The translations under genes were made by a program, and so were the position numbers. This document shows, piece after piece, positions 3,662 to 41,354 of a stretch of DNA of 64,000 nucleotides. Location of the stretch: positions 310,001 to 374,000 of the forward strand of contig NZ_OY780939.1 in the NCBI RefSeq assembly GCF_963675975.1, given 5' to 3'. The number at the start of each line of letters is the position of its first letter. The first letter of the stretch is position 1. Below the pieces are notes generated by a model. The model had not been told where the DNA came from and searched no databases. It was given only the letters and a program-made list of their open reading frames with translations. This stretch comes from Halarcobacter sp. (GTDB lineage: Bacteria; Campylobacterota; Campylobacteria; Campylobacterales; Arcobacteraceae).

Positions 3662-3662
3662 T

Positions 3663-5822: not shown

Positions 5823-5836
5823 AAATTTTCCTTATT

Positions 5837-18000: not shown

Positions 18001-21000
18001 TGTCTGTATCAGTATCCGTGTCTGTGTCGGTATCAGTGTCCGTGTCAGTGTCTGTATCTGTATCAGTGTCCGTGTCAGTGTCAGTATCCGTATCCGTATC
18101 TGTGTCAGTATCCGTATCCGTATCTGTATCTGTATCAGTATCTGTATCCGTGTCTGTGTCAGTGTCTGTGTCCGTATCAGTGTCCGTGTCTGTATCTGTG
18201 TCAGTATCAGTATCTGTATCCGTGTCTGTATCCGTGTCTGTATCCGTATCAGTATCTGTATCCGTGTCCGTGTCAGTGTCTGTATCTGTATCAGTGTCCG
18301 TGTCTGTATCAGTGTCAGTATCCGTATCCGTGTCCGTGTCAGTATCCGTGTCTGTATCCGTGTCTGTATCTGTATCCGTATCTGTGTCAGTATCTGTATC
18401 TGTGTCAGTATCTGTATCTGTGTCAGTATCAGTGTCTGTATCTGTATCAGTGTCCGTATCTGTATCCGTATCAGTGTCCGTGTCTGTATCCGTGTCTGTA
18501 TCTGTATCTGTATCCGTATCAGTGTCCGTATCTGTATCTGTGTCAGTATCAGTATCTGTATCCGTGTCTGTATCCGTGTCTGTATCCGTGTCTGTATCTG
18601 TATCCGTATCTGTGTCAGTATCTGTATCTGTGTCAGTATCTGTATCTGTGTCAGTATCAGTGTCTGTATCTGTATCAGTGTCCGTATCTGTATCCGTATC
18701 AGTGTCCGTGTCTGTATCCGTGTCTGTATCTGTATCTGTATCCGTATCTGTGTCAGTATCCGTATCCGTGTCCGTGTCCGTGTCTGTATCTGTGTCTGTA
18801 TCGGTATCCGTATCAGTGTCAGTGTCTGTATCTGTGTCAGTATCAGTATCTGTATCTGTGTCAGTATCCGTATCCGTATCTGTATCAGTGTCAGTATCCG
18901 TATCCGTGTCCGTGTCAGTATCCGTGTCTGTATCCGTGTCTGTATCTGTATCCGTATCTGTGTCAGTATCTGTATCTGTGTCCGTGTCCGTGTCAGTATC
19001 CGTATCAGTATCTGTGTCAGTATCCGTATCAGTATCTGTGTCCGTATCAGTGTCTGTATCAGTGTCTGTATCAGTGTCAGTATCCGTATCCGTGTCCGTG
19101 TCAGTATCCGTATCTGTATCCGTGTCTGTATCTGTATCCGTATCTGTGTCAGTATCCGTGTCAGTATCCGTATCAGTATCTGTGTCCGTGTCTGTATCTG
19201 TGTCAGTATCCGTGTCTGTGTCCGTATCAGTGTCCGTGTCTGTATCTGTGTCAGTATCAGTATCTGTATCCGTGTCTGTATCCGTGTCTGTATCCGTATC
19301 AGTATCCGTGTCCGTGTCAGTGTCTGTATCTGTATCAGTGTCCGTGTCTGTATCTGTGTCAGTATCAGTATCTGTATCCGTGTCTGTATCCGTATCAGTA
19401 TCTGTATCCGTGTCCGTGTCAGTGTCTGTATCTGTATCAGTGTCCGTGTCTGTATCAGTGTCAGTATCCGTATCCGTGTCCGTGTCAGTATCCGTATCTG
19501 TATCCGTGTCTGTATCCGTGTCTGTATCTGTATCCGTATCTGTGTCAGTATCTGTATCTGTGTCAGTATCTGTATCTGTGTCAGTATCAGTGTCTGTATC
19601 TGTATCAGTGTCCGTGTCTGTATCCGTGTCTGTATCTGTATCCGTATCTGTGTCAGTATCCGTATCCGTGTCCGTGTCCGTGTCTGTATCTGTGTCTGTA
19701 TCGGTATCCGTATCAGTGTCAGTGTCTGTATCTGTGTCAGTATCAGTATCTGTATCTGTATCTGTGTCAGTATCCGTATCCGTATCTGTATCAGTGTCAG
19801 TATCCGTATCCGTATCTGTGTCCGTATCAGTATCAGTATCAGTATCTGTGTCCGTGTCTGTGTCCGTGTCCGTATCTGTGTCCGTGTCCGTGTCGGTATC
19901 GGTATCAGTATCCGTATCTGTATCTGTATCAGTGTCAGTATCAGTGTCTGTGTCAGTATCTGTATCTGTATCCGTGTCTGTGTCAGTATCTGTATCTGTG
20001 TCTGTATCGGTATCAGTATCCGTATCTGTGTCAGTGTCTGTATCTGTATCTGTGTCTGTATCGGTATCAGTATCCGTATCAGTATCGGTATCAGTGTCGG
20101 TATCCGTGTCTGTGTCTGTGTCCGTGTCCGTATCTGTGTCCGTGTCTGTGTCAGTATCTGTATCCGTGTCTGTGTCAGTATCTGTATCCGTGTCTGTGTC
20201 AGTATCTGTATCCGTATCTGTGTCAGTGTCTGTATCTGTATCTGTGTCTGTATCGGTATCAGTATCAGTATCAGTGTCGGTATCCGTGTCTGTGTCCGTG
20301 TCCGTATCTGTGTCCGTGTCCGTGTCGGTATCGGTATCAGTATCCGTATCTGTATCTGTATCAGTGTCAGTATCAGTGTCTGTGTCAGTATCTGTATCTG
20401 TATCCGTGTCTGTGTCAGTATCTGTATCCGTGTCTGTGTCAGTATCTGTATCTGTGTCTGTATCGGTATCAGTATCCGTATCTGTGTCAGTGTCTGTATC
20501 TGTATCCGTATCTGTGTCAGTGTCTGTATCTGTATCTGTGTCTGTATCGGTATCAGTATCCGTATCAGTATCGGTATCAGTGTCGGTATCCGTGTCTGTG
20601 TCTGTGTCCGTGTCCGTATCTGTATCTGTATCTGTGTCTGTATCGGTATCAGTATCAGTATCAGTGTCGGTATCCGTGTCTGTGTCCGTGTCCGTATCTG
20701 TGTCCGTGTCCGTGTCGGTATCGGTATCAGTATCCGTATCTGTATCTGTATCAGTGTCAGTATCAGTGTCTGTGTCAGTATCTGTATCTGTATCCGTGTC
20801 TGTGTCAGTATCTGTATCCGTGTCTGTGTCAGTATCTGTATCTGTGTCTGTATCGGTATCAGTATCCGTATCTGTGTCAGTGTCTGTATCTGTATCTGTG
20901 TCTGTATCGGTATCAGTATCAGTATCAGTGTCGGTATCCGTGTCTGTGTCCGTGTCCGTATCTGTGTCCGTGTCCGTGTCGGTATCGGTATCAGTATCCG

Positions 21001-22664: not shown

Positions 22665-23372
22665 TTATTTATTTTTTACAAATTCTTTAATTCTTTCATA
22701 ATCTTCAATGAAATCAACTTCTGCCCAAAATGCACCTTTTATATCTTTTATATATACATCTTTACCCGTTTCAACTAGTGAATAAAACACATCTTCCCAC
22801 CACATATTATATTCACCTTTATCAACTAAATACTCTAATTGGGCTTTCATAATTTTTAAATCTTTTTTTTGAATCTTTGCTATGCCTACATATTCCCCTG
22901 TAGTATCTTCATTTTTTAATTCTTTACCAAACTTTATTAGTTTGTCACCTTCCCAATAAAACCTATAATCAGCATCTTCAATTCTTGTACTATCTGATAA
23001 AAATACTGGAGATAAATCTGTATTAATTAAATCTTGCAACATAGAATCTTCTATAAATAAATCTGCATTTAAAATAATTAAATCATCATCTAATAAATCA
23101 TCCTTAGCAAACCACATAGAAGCAATAGAATTAGTAACTTTATAAAAAGGATTTTTATATGTTTTATAATCAAAACCCTTTAGAGCTTCATGTATATATT
23201 TTTCTTGATATCCAACTACAATAGTTATATCTGTAATATTATTACGATAAAAAAGTTCCATTGTTCTTCTTATTAGAGGTTTTCCGCCAACATCAACACA
23301 TGATTTTGGATGATCTCCTAAATATCTACTAATTCTTGTTCCAACCCCTGCAGCTAAAATTAATACTTTCAT
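22665..23372 (-). CDS. LicC-like sugar/choline-phosphate nucleotidyltransferase
   Basis: This 235-residue NTP_transferase-fold protein begins with the signature LAAGVGTRI and continues PKSCVDVGGKPLI. That pattern marks small nucleotidyltransferases such as LicC (CTP:phosphocholine) and sugar-1-phosphate transferases; the metal-binding Asp probably lies in LNADLF. The substrate cannot be told from sequence. It is the last gene of the eight-gene operon, 8 bp after a HisC-like aminotransferase. A nucleotidyltransferase plus aminotransferase pair would suit making an activated amino compound, as in PntC-type phosphonate pathways; this is inference only. The ATG is preceded by GGAGAAGTA. Confidence 0.75.
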   Translation of the reverse strand: MKVLILAAGVGTRISRYLGDHPKSCVDVGGKPLIRRTMELFYRNNITDITIVVGYQEKYIHEALKGFDYKTYKNPFYKVTNSIASMWFAKDDLLDDDLIILNADLFIEDSMLQDLINTDLSPVFLSDSTRIEDADYRFYWEGDKLIKFGKELKNEDTTGEYVGIAKIQKKDLKIMKAQLEYLVDKGEYNMWWEDVFYSLVETGKDVYIKDIKGAFWAEVDFIEDYERIKEFVKNK

Positions 23373-23380
23373 TACTTCTC

Positions 23381-24418
23381 CTACTTTAATAAGTCTAAAA
23401 TTCTTTGCATATTTTCATTATCAACAATTGAAAATCTAATACAATTTTCAAGGCACTTTTGATCAAAGTCGTATTTGATTAAAAATTTATTTTCCAATAA
23501 TAGATTTTTATGATACTCATAATTTGATGATTTAAGTAATATAAAATTCGCATATGTATCCATATATTCTATATTTTCAAGTTTTGTTGTTTTAAATATT
23601 TTTTGCCATTTTTTAACTTGATTAACATTTTTTTCTAAAATCTTTTGAGCATTATCTAAAACTTTTTTCCCTACAGTCCCAGCTAAATAATCAATCTCAT
23701 CTATTGGTTTATATTTTCTAAGAAGTTCTATATTTTCAGGATTTGAAATAGCATATCCTACTCTAGCCCCAGGTATTCCAAGTGCTTTAGAGAAAGTTCT
23801 TGTAATAATTAAGTTTGGAAACTCTTTTATCAAACTTACAGTATCTATATCTATATAATGAAAGTATGCTTCATCTAATAAAAAAATTGTATCTGTATTT
23901 AAAGTATGTTTTGCAATAGCTTTTACCTCATCAAGAGTAAACATAGTTCCTGTAAAATTGTGTGGATTTATAAGTGAAAACAATCTTGTATTTTTTGTAA
24001 CTTTTTCTATAATATCTTGAACTTTTGTAGTAGCATCATCTTTGAATTCAACATATTTTTTCACTGCTTTTCTATGATAACTAAACACATCATACATGGC
24101 AAAACTTGGGTTATAATATACAACTTCGTCATTTTCATCAACAAATACTTCAAACACATATTTTAAAGCTTGTTCACTTCCTTGAGTGATAAGCAGATTA
24201 TTGACCTCAACTCCTACAAAATTTGCTAATTTTTCATATAAATCATATAAGTCAGGATAGATTCTTAACATCTTCATATCTAAATCATTAAACATTCCAT
24301 CAATTGAATCAAAGGCACTAAAAGGGGGCTCATTTTTATCTAAACAAACATATTGGTCTCTATCATTTTTTTCTAAAGGTGGTCTATATAGTTTAGAAAT
24401 ATATTCACTGTTTCTCAT
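23381..24418 (-). CDS. HisC-like PLP-dependent aminotransferase (class I/II)
   Basis: The protein has 345 residues with the fold-type I aminotransferase pattern of the histidinol-phosphate aminotransferase group. It shows LDKNEPPF near the N-terminus, the cofactor-binding TQGSEQALKY, the Asp of LLDEAYFHY and the PLP lysine in TRTFSKALGIPGARVGY. No other his genes are nearby, so a dedicated role in this operon is more likely than histidine synthesis. Its 13-bp and 8-bp gaps to neighbours indicate co-transcription. Alternatives include threonine-phosphate decarboxylase-like or phosphonate transaminase activity. Confidence 0.8.
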   Translation of the reverse strand: MRNSEYISKLYRPPLEKNDRDQYVCLDKNEPPFSAFDSIDGMFNDLDMKMLRIYPDLYDLYEKLANFVGVEVNNLLITQGSEQALKYVFEVFVDENDEVVYYNPSFAMYDVFSYHRKAVKKYVEFKDDATTKVQDIIEKVTKNTRLFSLINPHNFTGTMFTLDEVKAIAKHTLNTDTIFLLDEAYFHYIDIDTVSLIKEFPNLIITRTFSKALGIPGARVGYAISNPENIELLRKYKPIDEIDYLAGTVGKKVLDNAQKILEKNVNQVKKWQKIFKTTKLENIEYMDTYANFILLKSSNYEYHKNLLLENKFLIKYDFDQKCLENCIRFSIVDNENMQRILDLLK

Positions 24419-24431
24419 TTTTTTCCTACTT

Positions 24432-26642
24432 CTATGAAAATATAATTGAATCGATATCTTTAAAAGTTACATACCCATTAGTTTTACCTTGATAATTAAC
24501 CAAAGCAACTGTTTTAACTTTTCTATATACTATTTTTTCATAATTTTCTCTCAAAAAAGTTTCTAAATCATCAAATTCTGTAATTCCATATTTTATTAAT
24601 GAAAACACTATTTTTTGTCTATTTGTATAAAGATTAAAATATTTGCACTCAGCTTCAGTAACTAAAACATCCACTTTATCATCAAATTGAAACTCATATC
24701 CCAATTTATTTTCATCAAATAGTATCTCTTCTTTTAACAATTCATCTACAGAAATATCTGTTTTTTCAACAACCATTTCAAATAAAATTCCACAGTTTTC
24801 ATCCTCTAAATCAAACTTTGAAAAGTTCCTTTTTGATTGAATCTTTTCAATATCCCTTAATAAAGCTAATTTCAACTCTTTTCTTCGGCTACCCCATTTA
24901 GTTGAACCTTTTTTATCTTGAAATAGTGTTAGATATATCAAGGACAAAGAGGAGTTAAATTTGTATTTTTGTTCAAATGCTCTTAATGCAAAGTTTTTAT
25001 CAAACTTATTTCCATCTATAAACTCTTTTCTAATACCTTCTAATAAATATCTTTCTGGTTCATTCATAAACTCATCCTCAAATTTTCTTTTTACTTGTTC
25101 TTTTAACTTTCCATCCCAATCAATTCCCGATGCCAAGTTTGAAACTAATTCTGGCAAAATATATATTTCTGATAGTTCAACAAACTCTTTTCCATCAACT
25201 GTTTTTATATATTCATTTGTTTTAGTATCAATTAATGCACAATAGAGTTGGTAAACTCCTGGTTGAACTCTTCTATTTATTCTTAAACATACTTCATCAA
25301 CAACAATATCATCTTTTTTCCAATGTATAGAGTTGAAAGCCCCATTTGATATAGGATGGATTTCACTAAAACTTTGTCCATATTTAGATTTACCAACAAT
25401 ATTAACCTCAATATTTGAAAAACTTTTTTCTCCTACTTGAAATGTCAACTTTGAAAGAAATCCTGAACCTGTTCTAAAACTTTCTACAGCTTGATAGTCT
25501 AAAATCTTATATCCATATTCTAATTGGGCATTTATAGAATTTGTTGCTACATTTGCATTAAATAAATATTTCTTTTCATAAATAGATACATCTTTTTTTA
25601 TGTCATTTATATCATAAATAGATATATCTTTTTTCTTTTTCTTTCTTTTTCTTTCTTTTTCAAAAATAAACTTGATATTGTTTTCATCTTTGCTGATTTC
25701 TAAATTTTCTAGATTATTATCATCTAAACTTTGAAGTTTTTCACTAACATATGAAAAACATTTTTCATCTGCCATTTCAACTCCACCATTGTGTAATATA
25801 GTAGGATAAATATCTAATTGTGAAATCTGATTATTTGAAAACTTCAATTTGAACATTGCAGAGTATTTTAAATACTCATTACCAGCAATTGTATCTACTA
25901 AAAAAGTACCCATATCATATATTATTGGTTTATTTTTATAAACTTCCATTCCTAAAAGAAGATGTGAAGAGTGCCCAAGTATAGCATCACAACCAAAATC
26001 AATCAATTTTCTTGCTTGTACTCTTAACTGCTCTTCTGGATTTTCAACCCAGTTTTCTGTCCAATGGGGAGATACTATAATAAAATCTGCATGCTCTTTT
26101 GCTTTTTTTATAATCCCTTCTAAAGTTGATGAGATATTTTCTATTTTGCTAATATAAAATATTCCACCCCTTTCATCTGTTGCAAACAATGTTTTAGGAT
26201 TTACTGTACAAAAACTAATTACTGCAACAATACTATCTTTCACTCTGATATACATAGGTTTTTTTGATTCAGCTAGATTTCTTCCACTTCCAGAGTTTGG
26301 TATATTCATAAAATCTAAAAAATCTTTTTGAAAGATTACACCCTCTTCACCATAATCCATAGCATGATTGTTTGCAGTTGTTACCGCATGAAAATTTGAA
26401 TCTATTAAAAGTTGAGCTAATTTTACACTACATCTAAAATAGTAAGGATTTTTTTCTCTTTTAGGAAAAAGTTTACCTTTGTGTGTTATTACTGTTTCAA
26501 GATTGCAAAGATTTAAATCACTATTTCTTAAATATTGTAAAGTATTTCCAAATATTTTTTCTATAGAATCTTGTTCATAAAACATATGCATTCTACGAGC
26601 AAGTATTAAATCCCCTACTGCTGTTAAATTAAAACTCTCCAT
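24432..26642 (-). CDS. CapA/PgsA-like metallophosphatase-fold protein with extra C-terminal domains
   Basis: The first 280 or so of 736 residues match the CapA (poly-gamma-glutamate synthesis) family: TAVGDLI, NLETVI, TTANNHAMDYG, SPHWTENW and GHSSHLLLG. Unlike usual PgsA/CapA, no signal peptide or membrane anchor is visible. Residues about 300-350 are Lys-rich (a KRKRKKKKKD run). A beta domain at about 380-500 resembles Wzt-type carbohydrate-binding modules. The C-terminus (about 555-640) contains LIYLTLFQD...WGSRRKELKLAL...NFSKF...GILFEMV, which is also found at the N-terminus of the toroid protein at 32301-34112. The function is unproven; the setting suggests polymer assembly. Confidence 0.75.
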   Translation of the reverse strand: MESFNLTAVGDLILARRMHMFYEQDSIEKIFGNTLQYLRNSDLNLCNLETVITHKGKLFPKREKNPYYFRCSVKLAQLLIDSNFHAVTTANNHAMDYGEEGVIFQKDFLDFMNIPNSGSGRNLAESKKPMYIRVKDSIVAVISFCTVNPKTLFATDERGGIFYISKIENISSTLEGIIKKAKEHADFIIVSPHWTENWVENPEEQLRVQARKLIDFGCDAILGHSSHLLLGMEVYKNKPIIYDMGTFLVDTIAGNEYLKYSAMFKLKFSNNQISQLDIYPTILHNGGVEMADEKCFSYVSEKLQSLDDNNLENLEISKDENNIKFIFEKERKRKKKKKDISIYDINDIKKDVSIYEKKYLFNANVATNSINAQLEYGYKILDYQAVESFRTGSGFLSKLTFQVGEKSFSNIEVNIVGKSKYGQSFSEIHPISNGAFNSIHWKKDDIVVDEVCLRINRRVQPGVYQLYCALIDTKTNEYIKTVDGKEFVELSEIYILPELVSNLASGIDWDGKLKEQVKRKFEDEFMNEPERYLLEGIRKEFIDGNKFDKNFALRAFEQKYKFNSSLSLIYLTLFQDKKGSTKWGSRRKELKLALLRDIEKIQSKRNFSKFDLEDENCGILFEMVVEKTDISVDELLKEEILFDENKLGYEFQFDDKVDVLVTEAECKYFNLYTNRQKIVFSLIKYGITEFDDLETFLRENYEKIVYRKVKTVALVNYQGKTNGYVTFKDIDSIIFS

Positions 26643-26651
26643 CTAATCCCT

Positions 26652-28361
26652 TTAATAACTTTCCATATATTTTTCAGATAAATTTATAAAATTACTTATC
26701 TCTTGTTTTTCTAGTTGACATTTTTCTTTTATTGTTTTAGTTAATGCTTTTAATAAAAATATATTATTTGATTCTGCTTTTTGTTCTTTAGCTGGCCACT
26801 CTAAATAGTTGTTTAATCTTTTTTCTTTTGTTGCATATATACTTTGTTCTTGTAAATTATCTAATAATGATTTATAAAATTTTGTGTTTTTAAATCTATT
26901 TGCTATTTTAGGAAATTGAATATATTCTGGTAATTTATACTTTTTGAAAGTTAAGTTTTCACTATCTTCACAATATTTACCTAAACTATTCCAAAATGAT
27001 GAGGCATTATATCCTTGTGAAAAAAGTGTTAATAACTCTTTTTTAGATTTTGGAAGTGTTCTACTTTTTATTCTTTTATTTTCTAAACTATACTCAATCC
27101 ATCTTGATGAGCCTTCTGAAAACCAATCGTTTCTTAACCTTGTTTTCGTATTTTGATAAATATGTGTCATCTCATGAAAAGGGATTAAATTATCATTTTT
27201 AAACTCTTTATTAACTGTCATAGAGATAACAGAACCCCTATGCAAATTATATTTTTTGGTTATTGAAAATCTTGAAAGTATACTTTTATTTGAAGTGTAT
27301 GCTTTTGATTTTACATCTCTTATTTTTATATCTATATATTTTGAGCCTCTTAAAACAAATGGACTATTTGAATAGTTTAGTGGATCTTTTAATAAAAAAT
27401 AGTTTTCTAAAATATTTTTTGAAAAAACCAATTGATACATTAGACTCTCAATTTTATCAGGTACTAAATTTTTGTTTTTGTCTTCAATATTTTCTATAGC
27501 ATCTTTTCTGGATAAAGAGTAAAATATTCTAAAATCATCGTACATATAAGAGTATTCATAATCCTTTGAGTTTAAATCTTTATAAGATTTCCCACCATTT
27601 TGAATAAAATCTTCTACAATATTACTAGCAGGGTTTGTAATAGTTTCTTCATTTTCAAAAGCTTTTTCTAAATTAAAATTTTGCTCTATTATTTTTGCAT
27701 TTCTTTTTATCATTGAAACTTGCTCTTTATTAAAACCAATATTTCTTTGTCCACCACTACCTTTACAATTGCTTGAGCTAGCCATAATATTTGTATCACT
27801 GTTATATTTGGCATTTTCTTCACAAACATGCCCTAATCCAAAACAATGTCCCATCTCATGCTCTTCTGGACTTTGTTTTGTATGATTTAATCTTTTCCAG
27901 TCTAATAAAATAAAAGGGTGAGAAGCTTTATTAAAAGCTCCCCTTGAAGTGGTATATTTATCATAACCATATTTAGGAGAGTAACTATCTATTATATAAA
28001 TATTTATAGCTTTTTTATCTCTTACATTTGAATCTTTGCATGTAAAATATTCATTATAAACTCTTTTTTTATCATACTTCTCTTTTGTATCTCCCAAACG
28101 GATAAACTCACATTTGGAATCTTTTATATCATCGTAAAATGCTGCAGATTTAAATCTAAAATTTATTAGTTTTTCTCTATTTTCACTAACAAAATATTTA
28201 TTTAAAATCTCTACTTCTTTTTTTAATTGATTTAATGTTGCTTTTTCATGAGCCTTCTCATTTTTTGTTAAAACTACAAAATGTATATCAAAAGATGGAA
28301 GTTCATTTGCAAATATTTTTGAAAATAAAAAGATACAAAGAAGAAGTGATTTTTTTACCAT
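26652..28361 (-). CDS. Exported protein with two zinc-metalloprotease motifs
   Basis: This 569-residue precursor has a signal peptide (residues 1-19, FSKIFA-N). The N-terminal half carries a metzincin site HEMGHCFGLGH (168-178), followed by a plausible Met-turn (NIMASS). The C-terminal half carries a second, gluzincin-like site HEMTH (396-400) with a downstream Glu in WFSEGSSRW (E416). The two sites belong to different protease classes, so this looks like a fusion of two exported peptidases. It lies 9 bp before the CapA-like gene and 4 bp after the MurF-like ligase gene. Processing of a peptide polymer or surface protein is possible but inferred. Confidence 0.7.
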   Translation of the reverse strand: MVKKSLLLCIFLFSKIFANELPSFDIHFVVLTKNEKAHEKATLNQLKKEVEILNKYFVSENREKLINFRFKSAAFYDDIKDSKCEFIRLGDTKEKYDKKRVYNEYFTCKDSNVRDKKAINIYIIDSYSPKYGYDKYTTSRGAFNKASHPFILLDWKRLNHTKQSPEEHEMGHCFGLGHVCEENAKYNSDTNIMASSSNCKGSGGQRNIGFNKEQVSMIKRNAKIIEQNFNLEKAFENEETITNPASNIVEDFIQNGGKSYKDLNSKDYEYSYMYDDFRIFYSLSRKDAIENIEDKNKNLVPDKIESLMYQLVFSKNILENYFLLKDPLNYSNSPFVLRGSKYIDIKIRDVKSKAYTSNKSILSRFSITKKYNLHRGSVISMTVNKEFKNDNLIPFHEMTHIYQNTKTRLRNDWFSEGSSRWIEYSLENKRIKSRTLPKSKKELLTLFSQGYNASSFWNSLGKYCEDSENLTFKKYKLPEYIQFPKIANRFKNTKFYKSLLDNLQEQSIYATKEKRLNNYLEWPAKEQKAESNNIFLLKALTKTIKEKCQLEKQEISNFINLSEKYMESY

Positions 28362-28365
28362 TAGA

Positions 28366-29823
28366 TTACTTTATTTGCTTTTTAGAACCAAGTTTAAAAA
28401 TCTTTGAGCTTATAGTTGCAAGTTTTAAATATCCATTTCCCATTATAAAAAGTAAGTCATCTTCTTGCAAATTCTCTCTTACACTATCAAAAATTTTATC
28501 TTTGTCATTTGTATCCATAATAACTTTTTTCTTCATCTCATCATTTAAATTTTCATGAAGATAGTTTAAGTATGGACCAGTTGTATATAATAAATCAATG
28601 GGTGCTTCATTTATATATGAAGCTAAAGCTGTATGTTGTTCTTTTGTAAAAGTATTATCTTCTTCAGTAGAAGAACCTCCAATTACAGCTACAACTCTTC
28701 TATCACCTTTTATATTTTTCAAATCTAAAAGTGCAGATTTCATACCTTCAATTGCACCCCTTAAAGATTGGTCATAATATAAAATCTTTTTCTTATCAAA
28801 ATCCACTTCAAATAATCTTCCCATTGTTTCATAACAAATTAGATTTTTATAATTTTCACTAACTTTATTTATATTTTGAGATAATAAATCAGCCACAAGT
28901 AAAGCTGCAATACTTTGTAAAGGGGCATGATTTTGAAACATAGGAACAGTATAATTTACGATATTGCCTCTAATATTTCCTTTTATACTCCAAGTAAAAT
29001 CTTTATGATTAAAATTACTTTCCAGTAAGAATGCATCGGCACTATTTTCTTTACTAAAAGTGAATATTTTAACATCAGGTCTTAATTGCAAGATTTTTTC
29101 TCTTAATATCTCATATGTATCCATATCTTTATTTAAAATACAAAAACCATTTTGAACCATACCAACTACAGCTGAAGCTTTTGCTTTTATGAAATTATCT
29201 AATGTTTTGTGTACTCTCATATGATTTGGAGTAACATTGGTAAATACTACAATATTTGGTTTTACTATTTCACTTCTTTCTACACCAACTTCATATCTAG
29301 CTGCACCTGAAACTTCTAATATCTCTACTTTATCATCTTCTCTCATACTTAAAAGAGAGTATAAAATTGGTAATTTTACATTTGCACTATTTATTATGGC
29401 ATGAGTATTGATTAGGGGAGAGAGGATATGGTGTAGCTGAGTTTTAAATCCAGTTTTCCCTACACTTCCTGCAACTAAAACTCTTATAGGATTTAGTTCA
29501 TCTCTAATTGCACAAGCAACTTTTTCCATTGCTTTATTTACATCATCAACAACTAACATAGGTTTATTAAAAAATTGAGCATACTCTTTTTTATCAATCA
29601 CAATAGCAGAGGCTTTTTTCCTAAATATCTTTAATAACTCATATTCAATATCTGTTGAATCTTTTCGCCATTTATCAAGGGCAATTGCAAAACTTAAATT
29701 ACCTTCTTTTAAAACCCCATGTGTTCCAATTCCAGTAAAGTTAATATTTTCTTTACAATTAATCCAATAACCCTTTGTTATCTCTTTTAATTTTTGTGCA
29801 TCTAGATATATTTTTTCACTCAT
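28366..29823 (-). CDS. MurF-like amide ligase (stand-alone copy)
   Basis: The 485 residues have Mur-ligase layout: an N-terminal MurF-like domain (1-110), a central ATPase with P-loop GSVGKTG (119-125), the segment EVSGAARYEVG and NVTPNHMRVH. The C-terminal domain has YDQSLRGAIEGMKSAL in the place of MurF's DAYNANP-SM motif. The Mur ligase family forms ATP-dependent amide bonds via acyl phosphates (MurC-F, folylpolyglutamate synthase, PgsB, cyanophycin synthetase). It is clearly paralogous along its whole length to residues 335-816 of the preceding gene product. The substrates are unknown; this is not the cell's ordinary MurF by context. Confidence 0.82.
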   Translation of the reverse strand: MSEKIYLDAQKLKEITKGYWINCKENINFTGIGTHGVLKEGNLSFAIALDKWRKDSTDIEYELLKIFRKKASAIVIDKKEYAQFFNKPMLVVDDVNKAMEKVACAIRDELNPIRVLVAGSVGKTGFKTQLHHILSPLINTHAIINSANVKLPILYSLLSMREDDKVEILEVSGAARYEVGVERSEIVKPNIVVFTNVTPNHMRVHKTLDNFIKAKASAVVGMVQNGFCILNKDMDTYEILREKILQLRPDVKIFTFSKENSADAFLLESNFNHKDFTWSIKGNIRGNIVNYTVPMFQNHAPLQSIAALLVADLLSQNINKVSENYKNLICYETMGRLFEVDFDKKKILYYDQSLRGAIEGMKSALLDLKNIKGDRRVVAVIGGSSTEEDNTFTKEQHTALASYINEAPIDLLYTTGPYLNYLHENLNDEMKKKVIMDTNDKDKIFDSVRENLQEDDLLFIMGNGYLKLATISSKIFKLGSKKQIK

Positions 29824-29825
29824 AT

Positions 29826-32276
29826 TTATCCAATTTGTTCTTTTTTACCTAAAGATAAAATATATTGACCAACATTACCTAATCTTAAATATGCACTTCC
29901 CATTACAAAAACACAATCATCATTTTCTATATTTTTTGTAAGATCTTCAACTAACAGTTCTCTGTTGTCACTATGTAATTTTAATTTTGCTTTTAAATCC
30001 TCATTCAAATTATCATGTAAATAGTTTAAATAAGGCCCTGTAGTATAAAGTATATCAATATCACTTTCATTTAAAAGTTTAGCAAGTTTTTCATGTTGTA
30101 ATTTTGTAAACTCTCCATCCTCTTCAATAGATGAACCACCTAAAAGTGCTATTTTTTTACCCTTGATTTTAAAATTTTTTAAATCATTTAAAGCTGATTC
30201 CATACCCTGTATTGAACCCCTTAAAGATTGGTCATAAAAAACAAAACTCTTTTTATCATCTGTAATTCTAAAAACTCTTCCCATAGTTTGAAAAGTACTA
30301 ATGTTTTTATAATTTAAAGCAGCTTCTTTTGTATCGTAACCTAAGCTATCAACAACTAATAAAACTCCTAAACTTTGTATTGGTGCATGATTTTGGAATA
30401 ATGGCAAGTTATATTCAATCTCTTTTTTGTTTATCATAGCTTTTATATTCCAAGAAAAATCATCTGAGTTAAACTCTTTTGAAATAATATAAGCATCATT
30501 TTCTTTTGAAGTTCCAAAAGTTATAATCTTTGCATCATCTCTAATCTCTTTTATTACAGTTTTTAATTCTTTTGCATATATAGCATCATTGTTTACAACA
30601 CAAATACCATTTTCTCTTAGTCCTTCAACAGCTGAAGCTTTATTTCTAATCAGATTTTCTACACTTTTGTGAATATCCATATGAACTAAATTTATATCAG
30701 TAAAAACACAGATATTTGGAGAGATAATTTTACTTCTACTTGCACCCCAACTATATTTTGCAGCACCTGAAACCTCTACAATCTCAACTTTATCATCACT
30801 TTTTAAACTAGCTAAAGAGTACAAAATTGGAAGTTTTATATTTCCACTATTTAAAATTGCATGGGTACTAACAATATCTTTTAGACAATTATGAAGTTGT
30901 ATTTTAAAACCTGTTTTTCCAACTGTCCCACCTACAAATACTGTTTGAGGGTCAACCTTTTCTCTAACTTCAATTGCAACTTTTCTTAACATTGAAGTTA
31001 CATCATCTACAACTAAAACAGGAATTTTTAAACCTTTTGCATACTCTTCTTTATCAACAACAATTGTATTTACACCTTTTTTTACGCAAGAGTTTATTCT
31101 TTCCATAATAACTTCATAGGAAAGATTTTCTTTTCTCCAATCTGCTAAAGAAACAAAAAAACTAATAAAATCTTTTCCCGCATCACTGTGAGTTCCAACT
31201 CTTGAATATAAGATATTTGGATTAAAATTTATCCATTTCCCACCTGTAATTTTTGTCAAGTTTTCAGGAGTTAAATATATAGAGTCATCAACATTTAAAG
31301 GTTTTTCAAAAGCAAATTTATCAATTGTAGAGATAAATTTTGAAGCCATCTGTTTAAACTTTGAAATCTCTTCAGCTGAAGCTTCTTCTATAGAGTAGTT
31401 ATATAGTTTTTCATTTGGATTTTTTAATAGTTTTTTAGTACATTCAATCCCTTTTTTTATCTCATAAGCATACTCTTTGTAAGAATAAGTACCATCAAAA
31501 TTTGGGTTTTCAATCATTGTTGGTAATAAACCTTTGTACAATAAAAGATGATTTGTTAAAGTTAAAAATGTTCTACAGTTTCCATCAGGAAATGGATGTA
31601 ATAACTCTATTTCTTGAATAAACTTAGCTATCTCACTTATGATATTGTCTTCACCCTCTAATTTATGTAGTTTTTCATTAAATCTATTTACTATTCCTTC
31701 CATTTTTTTGGCAAATTGAAGTTGAACATAAGATTTTGCTTCATAAAACTCGACGAAACTTCCTTTTTGGTCTAAGATATTTTTAGTTTTTTCATCTAAT
31801 TCTGGGAACCAAGGATTAAATTGTAATTTACCTCTTTTCATCAATCGTTTATATACATCAAAAACATCTAAATCTTTTGCTGGTTTTTCAAACCCACTAT
31901 TATGAAAAAGTTTTACATTATCATCTTTTCTTAATTCAAATAACTCTTTAAAAAATTCTAGAGTTGTTCTTGCAGCAAAAAATTTAAACCCTGTCTCTTC
32001 ACATCTTAAATCTCCTGGTGAAGCTTCTCTTAGAGTTGAATGAACATTAAACATGCAAATATGATGAAGATTTCTTAAATAATGGCAACTAACACCTTTT
32101 GATAAATCAAAATTCTCTAGCATATGGGTATATGCATTAATCATCCCTTGTGTTGAACCACTCTCTTGATTTTCATAACCTGTCCAACCACGATATTTTT
32201 TATGAAACCTTCCATCAATAAAAAGTCTCCATAATTGTTTTTTATCAATTTGCTTTAAAGCAGTTATCCCATCCAT
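29826..32276 (-). CDS. Fic domain fused to MurF-like amide ligase
   Basis: This 816-residue two-part protein has a Fic/DOC-type helical domain at about 30-300. Its core is HPFPDGNCRT (227-235), close to HPFx(D/E)GN(G/K)R but with Cys in the usual Gly/Lys position. The catalytic His, Asp, Asn and Arg remain. Residues 335-816 form a MurF-like ligase with P-loop GGTVGKTG (449-456), EVSGAAKYSWG and YDQSLRGSIQGMESAL. Fic enzymes usually transfer AMP or other phospho-groups to hydroxyls. Fusion to a Mur-type ligase is not an arrangement I know. Only 2 bp separate it from the second ligase gene. Confidence 0.82.
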   Translation of the reverse strand: MDGITALKQIDKKQLWRLFIDGRFHKKYRGWTGYENQESGSTQGMINAYTHMLENFDLSKGVSCHYLRNLHHICMFNVHSTLREASPGDLRCEETGFKFFAARTTLEFFKELFELRKDDNVKLFHNSGFEKPAKDLDVFDVYKRLMKRGKLQFNPWFPELDEKTKNILDQKGSFVEFYEAKSYVQLQFAKKMEGIVNRFNEKLHKLEGEDNIISEIAKFIQEIELLHPFPDGNCRTFLTLTNHLLLYKGLLPTMIENPNFDGTYSYKEYAYEIKKGIECTKKLLKNPNEKLYNYSIEEASAEEISKFKQMASKFISTIDKFAFEKPLNVDDSIYLTPENLTKITGGKWINFNPNILYSRVGTHSDAGKDFISFFVSLADWRKENLSYEVIMERINSCVKKGVNTIVVDKEEYAKGLKIPVLVVDDVTSMLRKVAIEVREKVDPQTVFVGGTVGKTGFKIQLHNCLKDIVSTHAILNSGNIKLPILYSLASLKSDDKVEIVEVSGAAKYSWGASRSKIISPNICVFTDINLVHMDIHKSVENLIRNKASAVEGLRENGICVVNNDAIYAKELKTVIKEIRDDAKIITFGTSKENDAYIISKEFNSDDFSWNIKAMINKKEIEYNLPLFQNHAPIQSLGVLLVVDSLGYDTKEAALNYKNISTFQTMGRVFRITDDKKSFVFYDQSLRGSIQGMESALNDLKNFKIKGKKIALLGGSSIEEDGEFTKLQHEKLAKLLNESDIDILYTTGPYLNYLHDNLNEDLKAKLKLHSDNRELLVEDLTKNIENDDCVFVMGSAYLRLGNVGQYILSLGKKEQIG

Positions 32277-32300
32277 TCAATTACCCTTCATTCTCATAAA

Positions 32301-34112
32301 CTATTTTAATACTTTTAATAATCTTGCAAAAAAGCAAGCTGCGTGTTGTACAGAATCTACTCTTACCCATTGTCTAGTTAATTTGAACCTAAAACTATGT
32401 AATGCTTTTTTAGGATTTACATGACAATAATTTGATTTTTCATCATGAAAAGTTTTCATCAAACCTTCAGCACTTAATAACATATGCTCCATAATCCAAG
32501 ATGCTTTTTCTTCATCTTTTAAATATTTAGCTAAATAATAAGCACTAACAACACCTTCGCATCTTGAGGCATCATGGTAAACATGATCTCCAAATTGGTA
32601 AAAAAACCCACCTATATAATCTTTATTTGTTTTTAAAGTATTATATTCTGTGTACATATGATTAAACATCTGTTTTGTATCATTAAATACAAAATCGATA
32701 TAGCTTTGTTTTTTTAAAGCATCAACTTTTACCCACTCTTCAATAGCTTGCATAAGCCATGCATCAGCTGGTAAAGGTTCAAACAGATAATCATATTTTG
32801 TAGGCCTAATATCAACTAAAAAATCTAAAGCTTTTTCACTTTTTTCTTTTATCTCTTCTTTAAACTTTTCATCAATATTTTTCATATGTCGATAGTATAA
32901 AGCGAGACCTAAAAGAGCTTCACCTGGATAATAAAAAGAGAATAACTCTTTTTTTGTTTCATCATCAGGATTAATTATAGGTTTGCCATCATTATATTTT
33001 GGATGGATATAATAACCTATCATTTCACCCTCATCATCTATTCTACTAAGTATATGTCTTACTAAGCCTTCCATATATTTGTTATATTTATCACTTTTTG
33101 AATTAAGATAATAATGCATTAAAGATACAAGTCCTATTCCAGCACCACCTAGTTTTGATTTTTTGTTAAAAAAAGGAAAACAAGAATACTGCCCATCTAT
33201 CTTTTCTTCTTTAAAAGTTGAGATAAAAAAATCAATTGATTCTCTTGCTTTTGTAAGATATTTTTCTTCACCTGTTAATTCATAAGCTCTAAGTAGTGTT
33301 ATAGTTCCACCACTATGTCTTAAAATATTATTGTATAAAGGGTTTAGCATATTTGGATGCATATCATCAACTATTGTATTTTTATATGGATCATAAAAGT
33401 ATAAAAAACTCCCATCATCATTCATATTTTTTACTAACCAATTAACACTTTTAATAGTTTTATCATAAACTATTTCTTTAGAAAATTCAGCTGGCAGAGG
33501 ATATCCTCTTTGTAGTTTTAATACTTGATCTTCATAACTTACATAAGCATTTGATTCTACAAAAGTATACTCAATATCTTCTCTTCTCATTAGATGAACA
33601 CGTTCACTTATTTTATTTGTTCTTTTTGCAACTTCACATTGTTTTGAAAGAAAATTTAATAATTGATTTACACTCATAATCGATTTTGTGTAGGCATCCG
33701 TTGGCATAAAATAGTGCAAAATATTTTTATATTTCCATTTTAAGCCATTTATTCCTGGCTCAAACCTATTTGGAGAACTCATTTTCATTGTTGTTAAATT
33801 TCTTATGTTGCATGGATATTCTTTAGTTACTATTTCAAATAGTATGCGGCACTTAGATTTATCCAAAAGATTAAACTTTGTAAAGTTTTGATTTGTTCTT
33901 AGTTTAAAAATAACCCTATTGATACTCTCTTCAAGGGTATTTTTTCGTGAGCCCCACCTAATTGGTCTTTGTCCTTCTTGAAAAAGAGTTATATATATTT
34001 GAGAGATTTTAGGGTCAAAATCTATTTTATTTTTGTTAGTTGCGACAAAAGGCTTATTATATGATAAAGCCCCTCTAATATCTTCAAAAAGAGTTTCTAC
34101 AGTCTTTATCAT
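32301..34112 (-). CDS. Alpha/alpha-toroid protein with N-terminal LFQ-WGSR domain
   Basis: The protein has 603 residues and no signal peptide. Residues 25-140 carry the segment IYITLFQEG...IRWGSR...NFTKFNL...CRILFEIV, shared with the C-terminus of the CapA-like protein. From about 200 onward repeated helix pairs (TIKSVNWLVKNMNDDGSF, GGTITLLRAYELTGEEKYL, GEALLGLALYYRHM, DAWLMQAIEEW) resemble an alpha/alpha toroid as in six-hairpin glycosidases, epimerases and YyaL. Conserved HDASRCEGVVSAYYL and WVRVDSVQHAACFFARLL near the end may line the active cavity. The activity is not recognisable. It is the second gene of the operon, 13 bp after the lipoprotein gene. Confidence 0.6.
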   Translation of the reverse strand: MIKTVETLFEDIRGALSYNKPFVATNKNKIDFDPKISQIYITLFQEGQRPIRWGSRKNTLEESINRVIFKLRTNQNFTKFNLLDKSKCRILFEIVTKEYPCNIRNLTTMKMSSPNRFEPGINGLKWKYKNILHYFMPTDAYTKSIMSVNQLLNFLSKQCEVAKRTNKISERVHLMRREDIEYTFVESNAYVSYEDQVLKLQRGYPLPAEFSKEIVYDKTIKSVNWLVKNMNDDGSFLYFYDPYKNTIVDDMHPNMLNPLYNNILRHSGGTITLLRAYELTGEEKYLTKARESIDFFISTFKEEKIDGQYSCFPFFNKKSKLGGAGIGLVSLMHYYLNSKSDKYNKYMEGLVRHILSRIDDEGEMIGYYIHPKYNDGKPIINPDDETKKELFSFYYPGEALLGLALYYRHMKNIDEKFKEEIKEKSEKALDFLVDIRPTKYDYLFEPLPADAWLMQAIEEWVKVDALKKQSYIDFVFNDTKQMFNHMYTEYNTLKTNKDYIGGFFYQFGDHVYHDASRCEGVVSAYYLAKYLKDEEKASWIMEHMLLSAEGLMKTFHDEKSNYCHVNPKKALHSFRFKLTRQWVRVDSVQHAACFFARLLKVLK

Positions 34113-34125
34113 ATAGCACCTTTTT

Positions 34126-35430
34126 CTATCTTGTTTCTATTCTAAATTCAACTCTTCTTGATAATTCAAAATTTTCACTTCCATCTTTGTTATAAATAAC
34201 TTCTGAAGATGATTTACCTTCAGGAACAAAAGTACTTTGAATAAAATCTTTATTATCTAAAACTATTGAATTGTTTATTCCTTCCAAATATTCTAAAATA
34301 GCATCAGCTCTTTTTTGAGATAAAATTTTATTTTTTTCAAATTTTTCCTCAGGAGTTGGAGCAGTTCTATATCTTGATGAAGTATGACCTTCCACATAGA
34401 TGTTAATAATTTCATTACTGTAATTTTTTAACATATTTACATATTTAGGGAAAAACTGGTTTAGTATCTCTTTATATCTATCATTTATTTTACTACTTCC
34501 TCTTGTAAACATCATAGCTGGGTCTTTAAATCTGAAAGTTAAAGTATCTTCATCTAGCTCAGCATTCCATATTGCAAAATCATCTTTAAACTCATCATTT
34601 AAAACATCATATAATTCATTTATCACATAAATTTTTAATTCATCTTCTACTTTTCCTCTTTGAGAAGCAGAGTTTATAGCCATAGCCATTACATTATATG
34701 TACCATTTTCAACTTTTGTTTCAACTTGTGCACACCATCTATTATCTTTAATTTGTGCTTCTGTTACTGTTTTTCCACCATCAAATGTTATTTGTACTTG
34801 TTTTACATCTGAATCAATTATATTTCCACATATTTTTGGTGTATTGTCATTAATTACATCATTATCATCTATTGTAATTAGATTATAGAACTGCTCTTTA
34901 GGTTCAACTTCTACCTCTTCTTTATTTGAACAAATAGCTTCAATATCATCTGCTCTTAAAAGTTTAGAGATATATACATCATTTGTCTTTGAAGCATAGT
35001 GTAGTGCTGACATCTCATATTTGTCTAAAGTATCTCTATTTGCTCCATTACAAATTAAAAGTTTTGAAATATTTGTGTAACCATTTCTTGCAGAGTCTAT
35101 TAAAGGGGTATCTCCATACTTATCTTTTGTATTAACTTCAGCACCTTTTTCAACTAATAATTTTGCTATTTCAAAATGATTGAATCTTGCTGCAAGGTGC
35201 AAAGGTGTATAACCAAATCTATCTTTTTTATTTAAGTCTATACCTTTATTTATGAAAGTTTTAACTAATTCTAAATCATTAATTCTTACGGCATCATGTA
35301 TTGTTGTACCAACTATATTCTCTTTTGTATCACTTAAATCTGTTAAACTTAATTGTGTCTCTTTTTTTACACAGCCTGTGAATATAAAAATTGTAACTAT
35401 AAAAAATAAATATATTGATTTTTTCAACAT
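34126..35430 (-). CDS. Ankyrin-repeat / OmpA-domain lipoprotein, second paralogue
   Basis: This 434-residue lipoprotein has lipobox FTGC (Cys about 20). Ankyrin repeats lie at about 45-165 (DRFGYTPLHLAARFNH, DKYGDTPLIDSARNG), a beta domain at about 190-260, and an OmpA-like domain at about 300-434 with YVEGHTSSRYR and SRRVEFRIE. The order of domains and many motifs match the 959-2299 protein. It is the first gene of the eight-gene operon, with AAGAGGT eight bases before the ATG. Anchoring of the operon's product or machinery to peptidoglycan is a reasonable inference. Confidence 0.85.
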   Translation of the reverse strand: MLKKSIYLFFIVTIFIFTGCVKKETQLSLTDLSDTKENIVGTTIHDAVRINDLELVKTFINKGIDLNKKDRFGYTPLHLAARFNHFEIAKLLVEKGAEVNTKDKYGDTPLIDSARNGYTNISKLLICNGANRDTLDKYEMSALHYASKTNDVYISKLLRADDIEAICSNKEEVEVEPKEQFYNLITIDDNDVINDNTPKICGNIIDSDVKQVQITFDGGKTVTEAQIKDNRWCAQVETKVENGTYNVMAMAINSASQRGKVEDELKIYVINELYDVLNDEFKDDFAIWNAELDEDTLTFRFKDPAMMFTRGSSKINDRYKEILNQFFPKYVNMLKNYSNEIINIYVEGHTSSRYRTAPTPEEKFEKNKILSQKRADAILEYLEGINNSIVLDNKDFIQSTFVPEGKSSSEVIYNKDGSENFELSRRVEFRIETR

Positions 35431-36551: not shown

Positions 36552-37049
36552 ATGAAAGGATTTACTTTGCTAGCAACTATACCTAATGATTCTCGTTATA
36601 AGATGGTTGAAAAAACCATGAAAAAGTTAAATTATGATAGAAGTGCTTTAATTGAAGCTTTACATACTGCCCAAGAGAGTTTTGGCTATCTTGAAAACGA
36701 AACACTAAAATTTATTGCAAGAAGATTGAAAGTTCCTTTTTCAAAAGTGTATGGTGTCGCAACTTTTTACCATTATTTTAGACTTAAACCAAAAGGAAAA
36801 CATACAATTGTAGTTTGTATGGGAACAGCCTGTTATATAAAAAATGCAAATAAAATACTAGAACGTCTAGAAGAAAGATTTAAAATAAAAGCTGGTGAAA
36901 CAACAAAAGACAATTTAGTGTCACTAATTAGTGCAAGATGTGTGGGAGCATGTTCCTTAGCTCCTATAGCCGTTTATGATAATAAATCAGTTGGTCATTT
37001 AGAAATTGAACAAGCTGTTACAGAAGCTGAGGAGTTGATAAAATGTTAG
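36552..37049 (+). CDS. hoxE: NAD-reducing hydrogenase diaphorase subunit HoxE (NuoE-like)
   Basis: This 165-residue thioredoxin-like [2Fe-2S] protein has a helical N-terminal half (RSALIEALHTAQESFGYL, FSKVYGVATFYHYFRLKP) and the four cluster cysteines in CMGTAC and SARCVGAC. It is equivalent to NuoE and is the first subunit of the hoxEFUYHW operon. Two starts are possible: ATG at 36552 has no SD in front, whereas AAAGGA inside the first codons sits six bases before a TTG at 36567, which would give 160 residues and is probably the real start. It overlaps hoxF by 7 nt. Confidence 0.92.
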   Translation: MKGFTLLATIPNDSRYKMVEKTMKKLNYDRSALIEALHTAQESFGYLENETLKFIARRLKVPFSKVYGVATFYHYFRLKPKGKHTIVVCMGTACYIKNANKILERLEERFKIKAGETTKDNLVSLISARCVGACSLAPIAVYDNKSVGHLEIEQAVTEAEELIKC

Positions 37050-39916: not shown

Positions 39917-39925
39917 AGGATTATC

Positions 39926-41353: not shown

Positions 41354-41354
41354 G

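Follow-up and report, generated by a model that had tools for sequence, protein, structure and literature searches.

The 64,000-nucleotide stretch of Halarcobacter sp. DNA studied here (NCBI RefSeq assembly GCF_963675975.1, contig NZ_OY780939.1, positions 310,001 to 374,000; hereafter, the window) contains a run of eight genes on the minus strand, at 22665-35430, that is followed by an open reading frame (ORF) for a giant LapA-like adhesin with a very long Asp-Thr tract. We propose that this operon probably encodes a modular cytoplasmic system that modifies the Asp-Thr/Asp-Ser tract of the adhesin before secretion. The proposal is supported by gene content, by the folds and conserved residues of the enzymes, and by the association of two operon products, a toroid protein and a fusion of a Fic domain with a MurF-type ligase (Fic-Mur), with such tracts in other genomes. 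A preliminary description of the same DNA had suggested that the operon may make a free envelope polymer resembling poly-gamma-glutamate. That suggestion is not borne out, since the catalytic domain of the CapA-like protein is absent from all 21 Fic-Mur loci collected outside the window, and the conserved partner is instead a secreted adhesin with an Asp-Thr/Ser tract.

Results

The operon and the adjoining adhesin

All eight ORFs were recovered, and the re-measured intergenic gaps (13, 24, 2, 4, 9, 13, and 8 bp in transcription order) agree with the 2-24 bp given in the preliminary description. A simple scan for terminator-like sites revealed none between the operon genes and none in the 61 bp that separate the operon from the adhesin ORF; the three weak sites on the operon strand (27943-27920, 28907-28890, and 34223-34203) are all intragenic. 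Pfam and NCBIfam place the products in the families named earlier: a lipoprotein with ankyrin and OmpA parts, a toroid, two MurF-like ligases, an HExxH protein, a PGA_cap protein, a HisC-like pyridoxal phosphate (PLP) enzyme, and an NTP transferase (Table 1). The Fic domain, a domain shared by the CapA-like protein and the toroid, and the adhesin ORF had been overlooked. That the arrangement is not accidental is indicated by relative G002 (genomes and loci are designated by G and L numbers, respectively), which carries the same genes with matched parts 88-99% identical, and by the homologous Fic-Mur loci of 21 species genomes.

Table 1. Features of the operon and of the associated adhesin and secretion genes (window coordinates)
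Feature	Position	Strand	Remarks
Ankyrin/OmpA lipoprotein	34126..35430	-	First gene of the run; Pfam
Toroid	32301..34112	-	N-domain AMMECR1-like, barrel of (alpha/alpha)6 type; apparent core of the system, conserved
Fic-Mur fusion, 816 aa	29826..32276	-	AnkX-type Fic (residues 1-327) and MurF-type ligase (residues 329-809)
Second MurF-type ligase	28366..29823	-	Mur_ligase_M, 9.2e-23; 47% identity with the fusion's Mur half
HExxH protein	26652..28361	-	Two HExxH motifs, signal-peptide-like start; from sequence
CapA/PgsA-like protein	24432..26642	-	PGA_cap, 6.6e-57; C-terminal AMMECR1-like domain; peripheral
HisC/CobD-like PLP aminotransferase or decarboxylase	23381..24418	-	Predicted phospho-aminoalcohol synthesis
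LicC/PntC-like cytidylyltransferase	22665..23372	-	Predicted donor synthesis, CDP-(or CMP-)aminoalcohol
Giant LapA-like type I secretion adhesin ORF, 3,534 codons	22603..11999	-	Candidate substrate; 61 bp downstream of the operon, same strand
Uninterrupted (Asp-Thr) tract	17567..22018	-	Residues 196-1679 of the adhesin ORF
Type I secretion system	2321..7612	-	HlyD, 2321-3661; LssB-type ABC exporter, 3663-5822; outer-membrane channel, 5837-7612

The tract contains no residue other than Asp and Thr among its 1,484 positions. In a scanned stretch of 1,496 residues, three of which are neither Asp nor Thr, Asp is encoded by GAC 313 times and by GAT 435 times, and Thr by ACA (299), ACT (202), ACG (199), and ACC (45). 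Since synonymous codons vary, the Asp-Thr pattern is, judging by codon usage, kept at the protein level. The tract is preceded by an N-terminal domain that we read as LapA-like and that was found in 33 of 100 related genomes, the window's own included. The adhesin frame changes near 12050, the other frame being open on the minus strand from ~12050 to 9300 (an ORF is listed at 9300-11273); the gene is thus split by a single frame change, which may reflect sequencing error, decay, or switching. On the plus strand, at 17586-22508, the antisense of the tract creates a spurious, mostly (Val-Ser)n frame of 1,640 codons that gene callers may annotate. The LssB-type exporter near the adhesin scores over its model cut-off. 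The interval that separates the adhesin from the type I secretion genes encodes, at 7750-9254, a response regulator and a histidine kinase, both conserved in relatives (L103 and L169).

Toroid and Fic-Mur genes are associated with dipeptide tracts

The association of the toroid and Fic-Mur with Asp-Thr/Ser tracts is well supported. In different phyla, the toroid is found together with such tracts, also where Fic-Mur is lacking. A tract was defined as an Asp-x run of at least 20 residues. Among the 100 relatives, the toroid is present in six (G000, G002, G007, G011, G012, and G024), accompanied by a full-length Fic-Mur in all of these except G007. A tract was found in each of the six toroid-positive genomes and in one (G067) of the 94 others. 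The longest tract measures 1,484 residues in the window and, with variants of the Asp-Thr/Ser/Asn type allowed, at least 2,480 in G002, 1,480 in G012, 776 in G011 (where it lies on another contig), 290 in G024, and 32 in G007. Outside the toroid-positive relatives, a match to the repeat alone came from just two genomes, G088 (longest run 6) and G067 (20). A PE repeat in G010 was considered and rejected, as it is not of the Asp-x type.

To the same effect, adhesins of cassette-free genomes lack the tract. Adhesin loci were read in the frame holding the N-domain; 30 of them (L061-L090) were read out of 36 N-domain match rows, and 24 came from genomes without the cassette. In 23 of the 24, another 100-504 residues could be followed beyond the N-domain, and the longest Asp-x run in them was 2-6; L088 ends there. 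Relative G014 has the same flanks as the window, a 6,365-codon adhesin frame, and the same N-domain (72-75%; 72% to the window over residues 1-188); it has neither cassette nor tract, and its longest Asp-x run is 4.

Similar results were obtained with two wider samples. In a class-level set of 298 genomes, tracts occur in G000, G276, G281, and G370, all of them toroid-positive, and the Fic domain was met only in G000, G276, and G371; weak tract matches in G260 and G348 turned out to be runs of 4. In 303 genomes from the class of G107 (Oceanospirillum; Gammaproteobacteria), the only two strong toroids belong to the two long-tract genomes, G107 (Asp-Ala/Ser) and G627, the latter not chosen by homology. 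The longest D[S/T/A/N/G] runs of 17 weak tract matches inspected in this class were 2-31 residues (18 in G641), and partial toroid-profile matches in G512, G482, and G501 (2.5e-9 to 3.6e-5) were not counted as toroids. Fisher tests, with kinship ignored, gave 6e-9 for the 100 relatives and 5e-8 and 7e-5 for the 298- and 303-genome sets, respectively. The sample sets overlap and are not to be summed: G276 is apparently the L043 genome (G103), and G371 is apparently the L060 genome (G118).

Fic-Mur loci in other genomes

A pattern-based scan for the fusion, with one genome per species, yielded at least 21 loci outside the window (a lower bound) in Campylobacterota, Gammaproteobacteria, Burkholderiales, Desulfobulbus, and Magnetococcales. 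Each locus comprises the match and up to 10 kb on each side, and many end at contig boundaries. Two of the 21, L049 (G011) and L059 (G024), are Arcobacter genomes that are also among the 100 relatives; both were omitted from the tract search, which thus covered 19 genomes. The search produced matches in 12 of these genomes at E 1e-3, and reading confirmed true tracts in 11 of them, with a longest run per genome of 79-1015 residues; the match in G112 was not a tract.

The toroid was detected in 14 of the 21 loci at E 1e-6. In L048, it forms the N-terminal part of the fusion itself, and weaker toroid-like matches lie within the L047 and L055 fusions. A homologue of the cytidylyltransferase is present in 11 loci. 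The neighbourhood check suggested in the preliminary description thus has a divided outcome: the toroid, Fic-Mur, and the nucleotidyltransferase do co-occur, but co-occurrence is rare for the HisC-like enzyme and the lipoprotein, each found once, and for the CapA catalytic domain, found in none. Besides the window, only G002 and G011 were seen to have this last domain; in G011, it lies on the contig of L049, farther along than the L049 stretch reaches. The reading centred on CapA thus fails across relatives, while the toroid and Fic-Mur can even be fused. HlyD and an outer-membrane channel are encoded in 8 loci each. The LssB-type exporter was assigned to 9 loci in the cluster list and to 1 under a stricter filter of 40% identity to the window's exporter. 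Some loci also carry GT2, PIG-L deacetylase, and kinase-like genes.

An AnkX-type Fic domain fused to a MurF-type ligase

Both Mur-like proteins are indeed MurF-type, as had been stated, but the first of them is a fusion whose Fic half was missed. The N-terminal part of the fusion matches Fic in Pfam (4.7e-7), and its best NCBIfam match is AnkX (1.1e-30; 106.6 bits, the cut-off for the whole protein being 1400). In a PDB sequence search, residues 3-312 matched AnkX (4ber, 4.2e-22) and the rest of the chain matched MurF. In the predicted model of the fusion, built from 20 aligned sequences (mean predicted local distance difference test score, pLDDT, 86.9; predicted template modelling score, pTM, 0.60), residues 1-327 superimpose on AnkX 4bet with Z 28.9 and a root-mean-square deviation (rmsd) of 3.0 over 293 aligned residues at 27% identity, and residues 329-809 on MurF 4qf5 with Z 35.5 and rmsd 3.5 over 449. 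The model also matches cyanophycin synthetase 7lgq (Z 26.5, rmsd 2.5, 337 aligned).

The Fic motif HPFx(D/E)xN.R is present: H227, D231, G232, N233, and R235 are invariant in 20 of 20 fusions, and E224 is found in 19. According to one report, AnkX-type enzymes can be recognized by a Fic domain together with at least three of the four CMP-binding residues D28, R30, Y41, and R44 (PMC4454073). The fusion keeps three of the four: D21, R23, and Y34, equivalent to D28, R30, and Y41, occur in all 20 aligned fusions. Sequence and model together suggest that the Fic domain has the fold of AnkX-type phosphocholine transferases and is a predicted transferase.

The two ligases score 143.6 and 154.2 bits with the MurF model TIGR01143, below its cut-off of 288.6. 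For the second ligase, the TIGR01143 match (8.3e-42) far exceeds that to PgsB (0.0038; 16 bits vs. a cut-off of 222.7), and PgsB is not among the NCBIfam matches of the fusion. The operon does contain ATP-dependent amide ligases, as the preliminary description had it. Another Mur-family protein is encoded elsewhere in the genome. A plasmid search returned six records, none of which covers 80% of the fusion. The L057 protein, whose Mur P-loop is decayed, has an N-terminal YheC/D-like ATP-grasp domain.

Predicted donor synthesis

The best PDB matches of the cytidylyltransferase are LicC (1jyk, 1.4e-14) and then PntC (6pd1, 1.8e-11). It is thus a sequence relative of both, and an aminotransferase gene adjoins it, as in the PntC fusion. 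We compared the amine-facing positions in an alignment of 15 members (L059 being omitted as a copy of L038). These are N102/E193 in the window, D105/D192 in LicC, and E104/E196 in PntC; the comparison assumes that LicC numbering and the chain index differ by 20. The N102/E193 pair is kept in 14 of the 15, their E193 position corresponding to LicC D192 and PntC E196. The nucleotidyltransferase of the L059 region is the only aligned member with Glu at the PntC Glu104 position, where the other 14 have Asn.

The PLP enzyme of the window scores 217.7 bits with the HisC model TIGR01141 (cut-off 276.55). While it was found in a single outside locus, a PhnW-like class V aminotransferase occurs in 12 of the 21, usually adjoining the nucleotidyltransferase, so two unrelated PLP families occupy one place in the loci. 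In L059 (Arcobacter EP1; the same region as L038/L039), genes for phosphoenolpyruvate (PEP) mutase, phosphonopyruvate decarboxylase, a nucleotidyltransferase, and a PhnW-like enzyme stand together, a predicted complete set for CMP-aminoethylphosphonate. Given the two PLP families and the differing cytidylyltransferase residues (Glu in L059 vs. Asn), the loci as a group probably use two or more donors that carry an amine. Two HisC-like enzymes, Cj1437 and Cj1436, are known from Campylobacter jejuni. One report on them states that Cj1437 produces serinol-phosphate and Cj1436 phosphoethanolamine, either of which becomes amide-linked to capsule glucuronate (PMC11800397). The activation and amino-transfer genes were counted as members of the set in the preliminary description, and they are retained as such here.

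The toroid and the CapA-like protein

The toroid is 51-76% identical to 12 homologues from several phyla. In its predicted model (13 sequences, pLDDT 82.1, pTM 0.84), the barrel, at residues ~209-603, resembles GH76 mannanase 6y8f (Z 27.8, rmsd 2.9, 304 aligned) and epimerase 9l8i (Z 26.9, rmsd 3.5, 333 aligned). The C5-epim_C family (the C-terminus of D-glucuronyl C5-epimerase) was matched at E <=0.1 by 9 of 13 toroids, at best with 2.2e-6; the window toroid is below the curated cut-offs of both C5-epim_C (20.0 vs. 23.3 bits) and GH88 (13.4 vs. 26.6). Short Foldseek matches to 1zq7 (2.2e-5), 1vaj, and 1wsc, which we take to be AMMECR1-family structures, presumably cover residues ~1-200, since the matches are short and the barrel takes the remainder. 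A sugar on the tract is a possible substrate of the barrel, because GT41, GT2, and PIG-L genes are found in some loci.

The CapA-like protein has no signal sequence (by eye), and it matches the model of the lasso-peptide epimerase MslH (3.3e-24) below cut-off. Its C-terminus and the N-terminus of the toroid are one common domain (38% over 80 aa, E 2e-13). We considered a pathway for a ribosomally synthesized and post-translationally modified peptide, with a LanC-like toroid and an MslH-like CapA, and rejected it: the LANC_like match of the toroid is weak (0.01), and the structures that it resembles most are those of sugar enzymes. With gaps of at most 24 bp, there is no room for a precursor gene within the run (small precursor ORFs outside the run were not searched).

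Natural variants of the system

In G007, which is without Fic-Mur, a 195-aa AvrB-family protein (PF05394, 1.8e-22) is encoded between the toroid and the adhesin with the 32-residue tract. AvrB rhamnosylates a threonine of RIN4 (PMC10866546). G281 and G370 combine the toroid with a small tract protein of 421-434 aa adjoining type I secretion genes, and homologues of LapD and LapG are encoded near the tract locus of G370. G627 has the toroid and a LapA-like tract adhesin, and at a greater distance it encodes a methyltransferase and a GT41 (OGT-like) glycosyltransferase; Fic-Mur was not found in the 38 kb read of this genome. In G376, an Asp2-like protein (8.1e-6, below cut-off) follows the toroid at a contig end. 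Judging from G007, G281, G370, and G627, the toroid looks like the core of the system, and the hydroxyl transferase looks exchangeable among an AnkX-type Fic, an AvrB-type Fido protein, and perhaps a glycosyltransferase.

Other genes of the region

The C-terminal domain of the HExxH protein (MetPep) is present in 14 of the 21 outside loci, and its N-terminal half in none. The 29 proteins of the HExxH-domain family (L032-L060 and the window) come in a short form, often with a signal-peptide-like start, and a long form without one. Long proteins that were scanned (L033, L040, L045, and L060) contain leucine-rich repeat (LRR)-like and hydrolase or ATP-grasp parts; that at L045:13131-18725 (1,864 residues), which adjoins Fic-Mur, has HExxH, LRR-like, ATP-grasp/PylC-like, PIG-L deacetylase, F5/8C-like, and GT2 parts.

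The ankyrin/OmpA lipoprotein is probably a companion of the adhesin and its secretion genes. It was rejected as a member of the cassette because it adjoins the adhesin or its secretion genes in cassette-free genomes (G014, G009, and G008). Its OmpA-like part matches the type II Zorya ZorB2 model (8.4e-37; 127.4 bits, below the cut-off of 400). A paralogue at 959-2299 (minus strand) adjoins HlyD and is followed by a WG-repeat protein at 192-947 (minus strand); in relatives without the cassette (L104 and L105), homologues of these two likewise adjoin genes for type I secretion. Beyond the locus, genes resembling NuoE/NuoF and hydrogenase subunits (by eye) lie at 36552-41798 on the plus strand of the window. 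Such genes also flank the locus in G002, G007, and G014, whether the cassette is present or not.

Discussion

A proposed model for tract modification

From these results we infer the tract as the substrate, and with it every chemical step of the following scheme. The PLP enzyme would produce a phospho-aminoalcohol resembling serinol-phosphate or phosphoethanolamine or, in one relative, aminoethylphosphonate, which the LicC/PntC-like enzyme would convert with CTP to CDP-X (or a CMP-phosphonate). The AnkX-type Fic domain would then move phospho-X onto Thr/Ser hydroxyls of the tract with release of CMP, and the MurF-type domains would form ATP-dependent amide bonds on the installed amine or on Asp side-chain carboxylates. 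The Mur domain of cyanophycin synthetase acts on Asp side chains. A phospho-aminoalcohol would offer two handles, the phosphate for CTP and the Fic ester and the amine for Mur acylation, and the joining of Fic and Mur in a single polypeptide fits this scheme. The toroid core may bind or process the tract or a sugar on it, and the modified adhesin would then be exported by the type I secretion system. Apart from that of the HExxH protein, inspection by eye revealed no signal sequence in the modification enzymes, in agreement with modification ahead of secretion.

A more far-reaching version, which we put forward tentatively and hold to be less likely than not, is a new class of bacterial protein modification in which Fic-Mur installs phospho- or phosphono-aminoalcohols on every Thr/Ser of kilo-residue Asp-Thr/Ser tracts and in which these become joined by amide bonds to further groups or to neighbouring Asp residues. 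The stalk would thereby turn into a teichoic-acid-like, amide-crosslinked polyanion or zwitterion, and the host-targeting effectors AnkX and AvrB would be offshoots of enzymes that originally acted on a bacterium's own adhesins.

Several observations weigh against the proposed modification system. A tract can exist without the Fic-Mur cassette: toroid and tract occur without a Fic hit in G281 and G370 (298-genome search) and in G627 (38 kb read). Conversely, G371 and G376, which complete the six toroid-positive genomes of the 298-genome set, have a toroid but no tract, and toroid-free tract-like runs exist in G067 (20 residues) and G479 (Asp-Ala, 31 residues, the only weak match to reach 20). 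Sequence search and reading found no tract in 8 of the 19 outside Fic-Mur genomes; the misses may in part be assembly breaks, since many tract contigs end inside the tract, a point that applies in general and not case by case. Kinship among the genomes inflates the association tests. At the residue level, the position of AnkX R44 is Arg in 3 of 20 fusions and Gln in the window. Finally, of the 20 fusions, 18 retain K454, the lysine of the Mur P-loop, and its loss in two Burkholderiales loci (L057 and L058) implies that amide formation by Mur is not universal.

Alternative explanations

The eight tract-negative Fic-Mur genomes are also in line with a different explanation, in which the enzymes modify another envelope target, such as lipopolysaccharide, a lipid, or a small peptide, and travel with tract adhesins in one surface or biofilm island. 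LicC/PntC-type activation has been proposed for glycan or lipid tailoring (PMC6697681), and the GT2, PIG-L deacetylase, and kinase-like genes of some loci would suit such a target. We nevertheless consider this explanation unlikely. AnkX and AvrB, the characterized Fido enzymes in this comparison, modify protein hydroxyls. The toroid, moreover, tracks the tract rather than the adhesin alone, being present in 6 of the 100 relatives as against 33 for the adhesin N-domain. No lipopolysaccharide or lipid gene was seen among the annotated recurring clusters, though not all locus proteins were annotated and no dedicated search was made. Still less probable is that the tract stays unmodified and acts as an acidic spacer, for instance by binding calcium, while the toroid and Fic-Mur serve the regulation of the adhesin or a different part of it. 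Asp-Thr tracts are acidic and could bind calcium, and the adhesin has other modules containing Ser and Thr. Against this, the short Asp-x runs of the 23 cassette-free adhesin loci indicate that the tract goes with the enzymes, and the strict alternation of Thr with Asp, in which codons change only synonymously, suggests that Thr is needed.

As to a free amide-linked envelope polymer made in the manner of poly-gamma-glutamate by CapA and a Mur ligase, a PGA_cap protein, two Mur ligases, and PLP and nucleotidyltransferase genes do stand in one run. We reject this reading because CapA is not kept in relatives, and we regard it as the least credible of those considered: the CapA-like protein has no recognizable signal sequence, the genes that do recur encode the toroid, Fic-Mur, and the cytidylyltransferase, and nearly half of the loci contain the LssB-type protein exporter. 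The system shares a CapA-family protein and Mur-type ligases with PgsBCA/CapBCA. It differs in that its ligases are MurF-like, its CapA is not conserved among relatives, and none of the eight proteins matches a PgsC-like family in Pfam or NCBIfam, in accordance with the earlier remark that PgsC is missing. The expectation that the target is an envelope component is probably correct. The operon is real, conserved, and, as far as we searched, undescribed, and it is most likely a modification branch of the adhesin pathway rather than a polymer synthase.

Comparison with known systems

The nearest functional analogue is provided by SdgA and SdgB, dedicated enzymes reported to glycosylate the serine-aspartate repeats of staphylococcal adhesins (PMC8561734, PMC3794999). 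The modified residue, proven or proposed, is in both cases the hydroxyl-bearing member of an extended dipeptide repeat that contains Asp, and the protein is an adhesin of the cell surface. By description, the two are set apart by their enzymes, which are glycosyltransferases in staphylococci and here comprise Fic, a likely CDP-aminoalcohol supply, and Mur ligases, with an adhesin secreted by a type I system; no glycosyltransferase is among the Pfam/NCBIfam matches of the eight operon proteins. With the Legionella effector AnkX, the fusion shares the whole Fic-plus-CMP-binding module, including HPFxDGN.R and the equivalents of D28, R30, and Y41. It differs from AnkX in having no ankyrin repeats, in being joined to a MurF ligase, and in being encoded beside likely donor genes and the bacterium's own adhesin. 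AvrB, an effector and rhamnosyltransferase of the Fido fold, belongs to the Fic superfamily and has a family member in G007, though none in the window.

The preliminary description knew of no pathway with this gene set, and our search of the open-access literature found none either. Its top-ranked results contained nothing that joins Fic, Mur, and type I adhesins, and nothing on the Asp-Thr tracts of such adhesins (subscription journals are mostly uncovered by this search). Modification of dipeptide-repeat adhesins is thus already known as a kind; the enzymes and the probable chemistry are new. The proposed modification of the tract predicts mass shifts repeated along a very long known sequence, and the toroid provides a marker for finding such systems in genomes. 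If the proposal is correct, the operon would give Gram-negative bacteria an equivalent, based on different chemistry, of the glycosylation of serine-aspartate repeats, and the existence of such dipeptide-repeat stalks would be explained. Fic/AnkX-type enzymes, known as host-directed effectors, would gain a role in the modification of a bacterium's own surface proteins.

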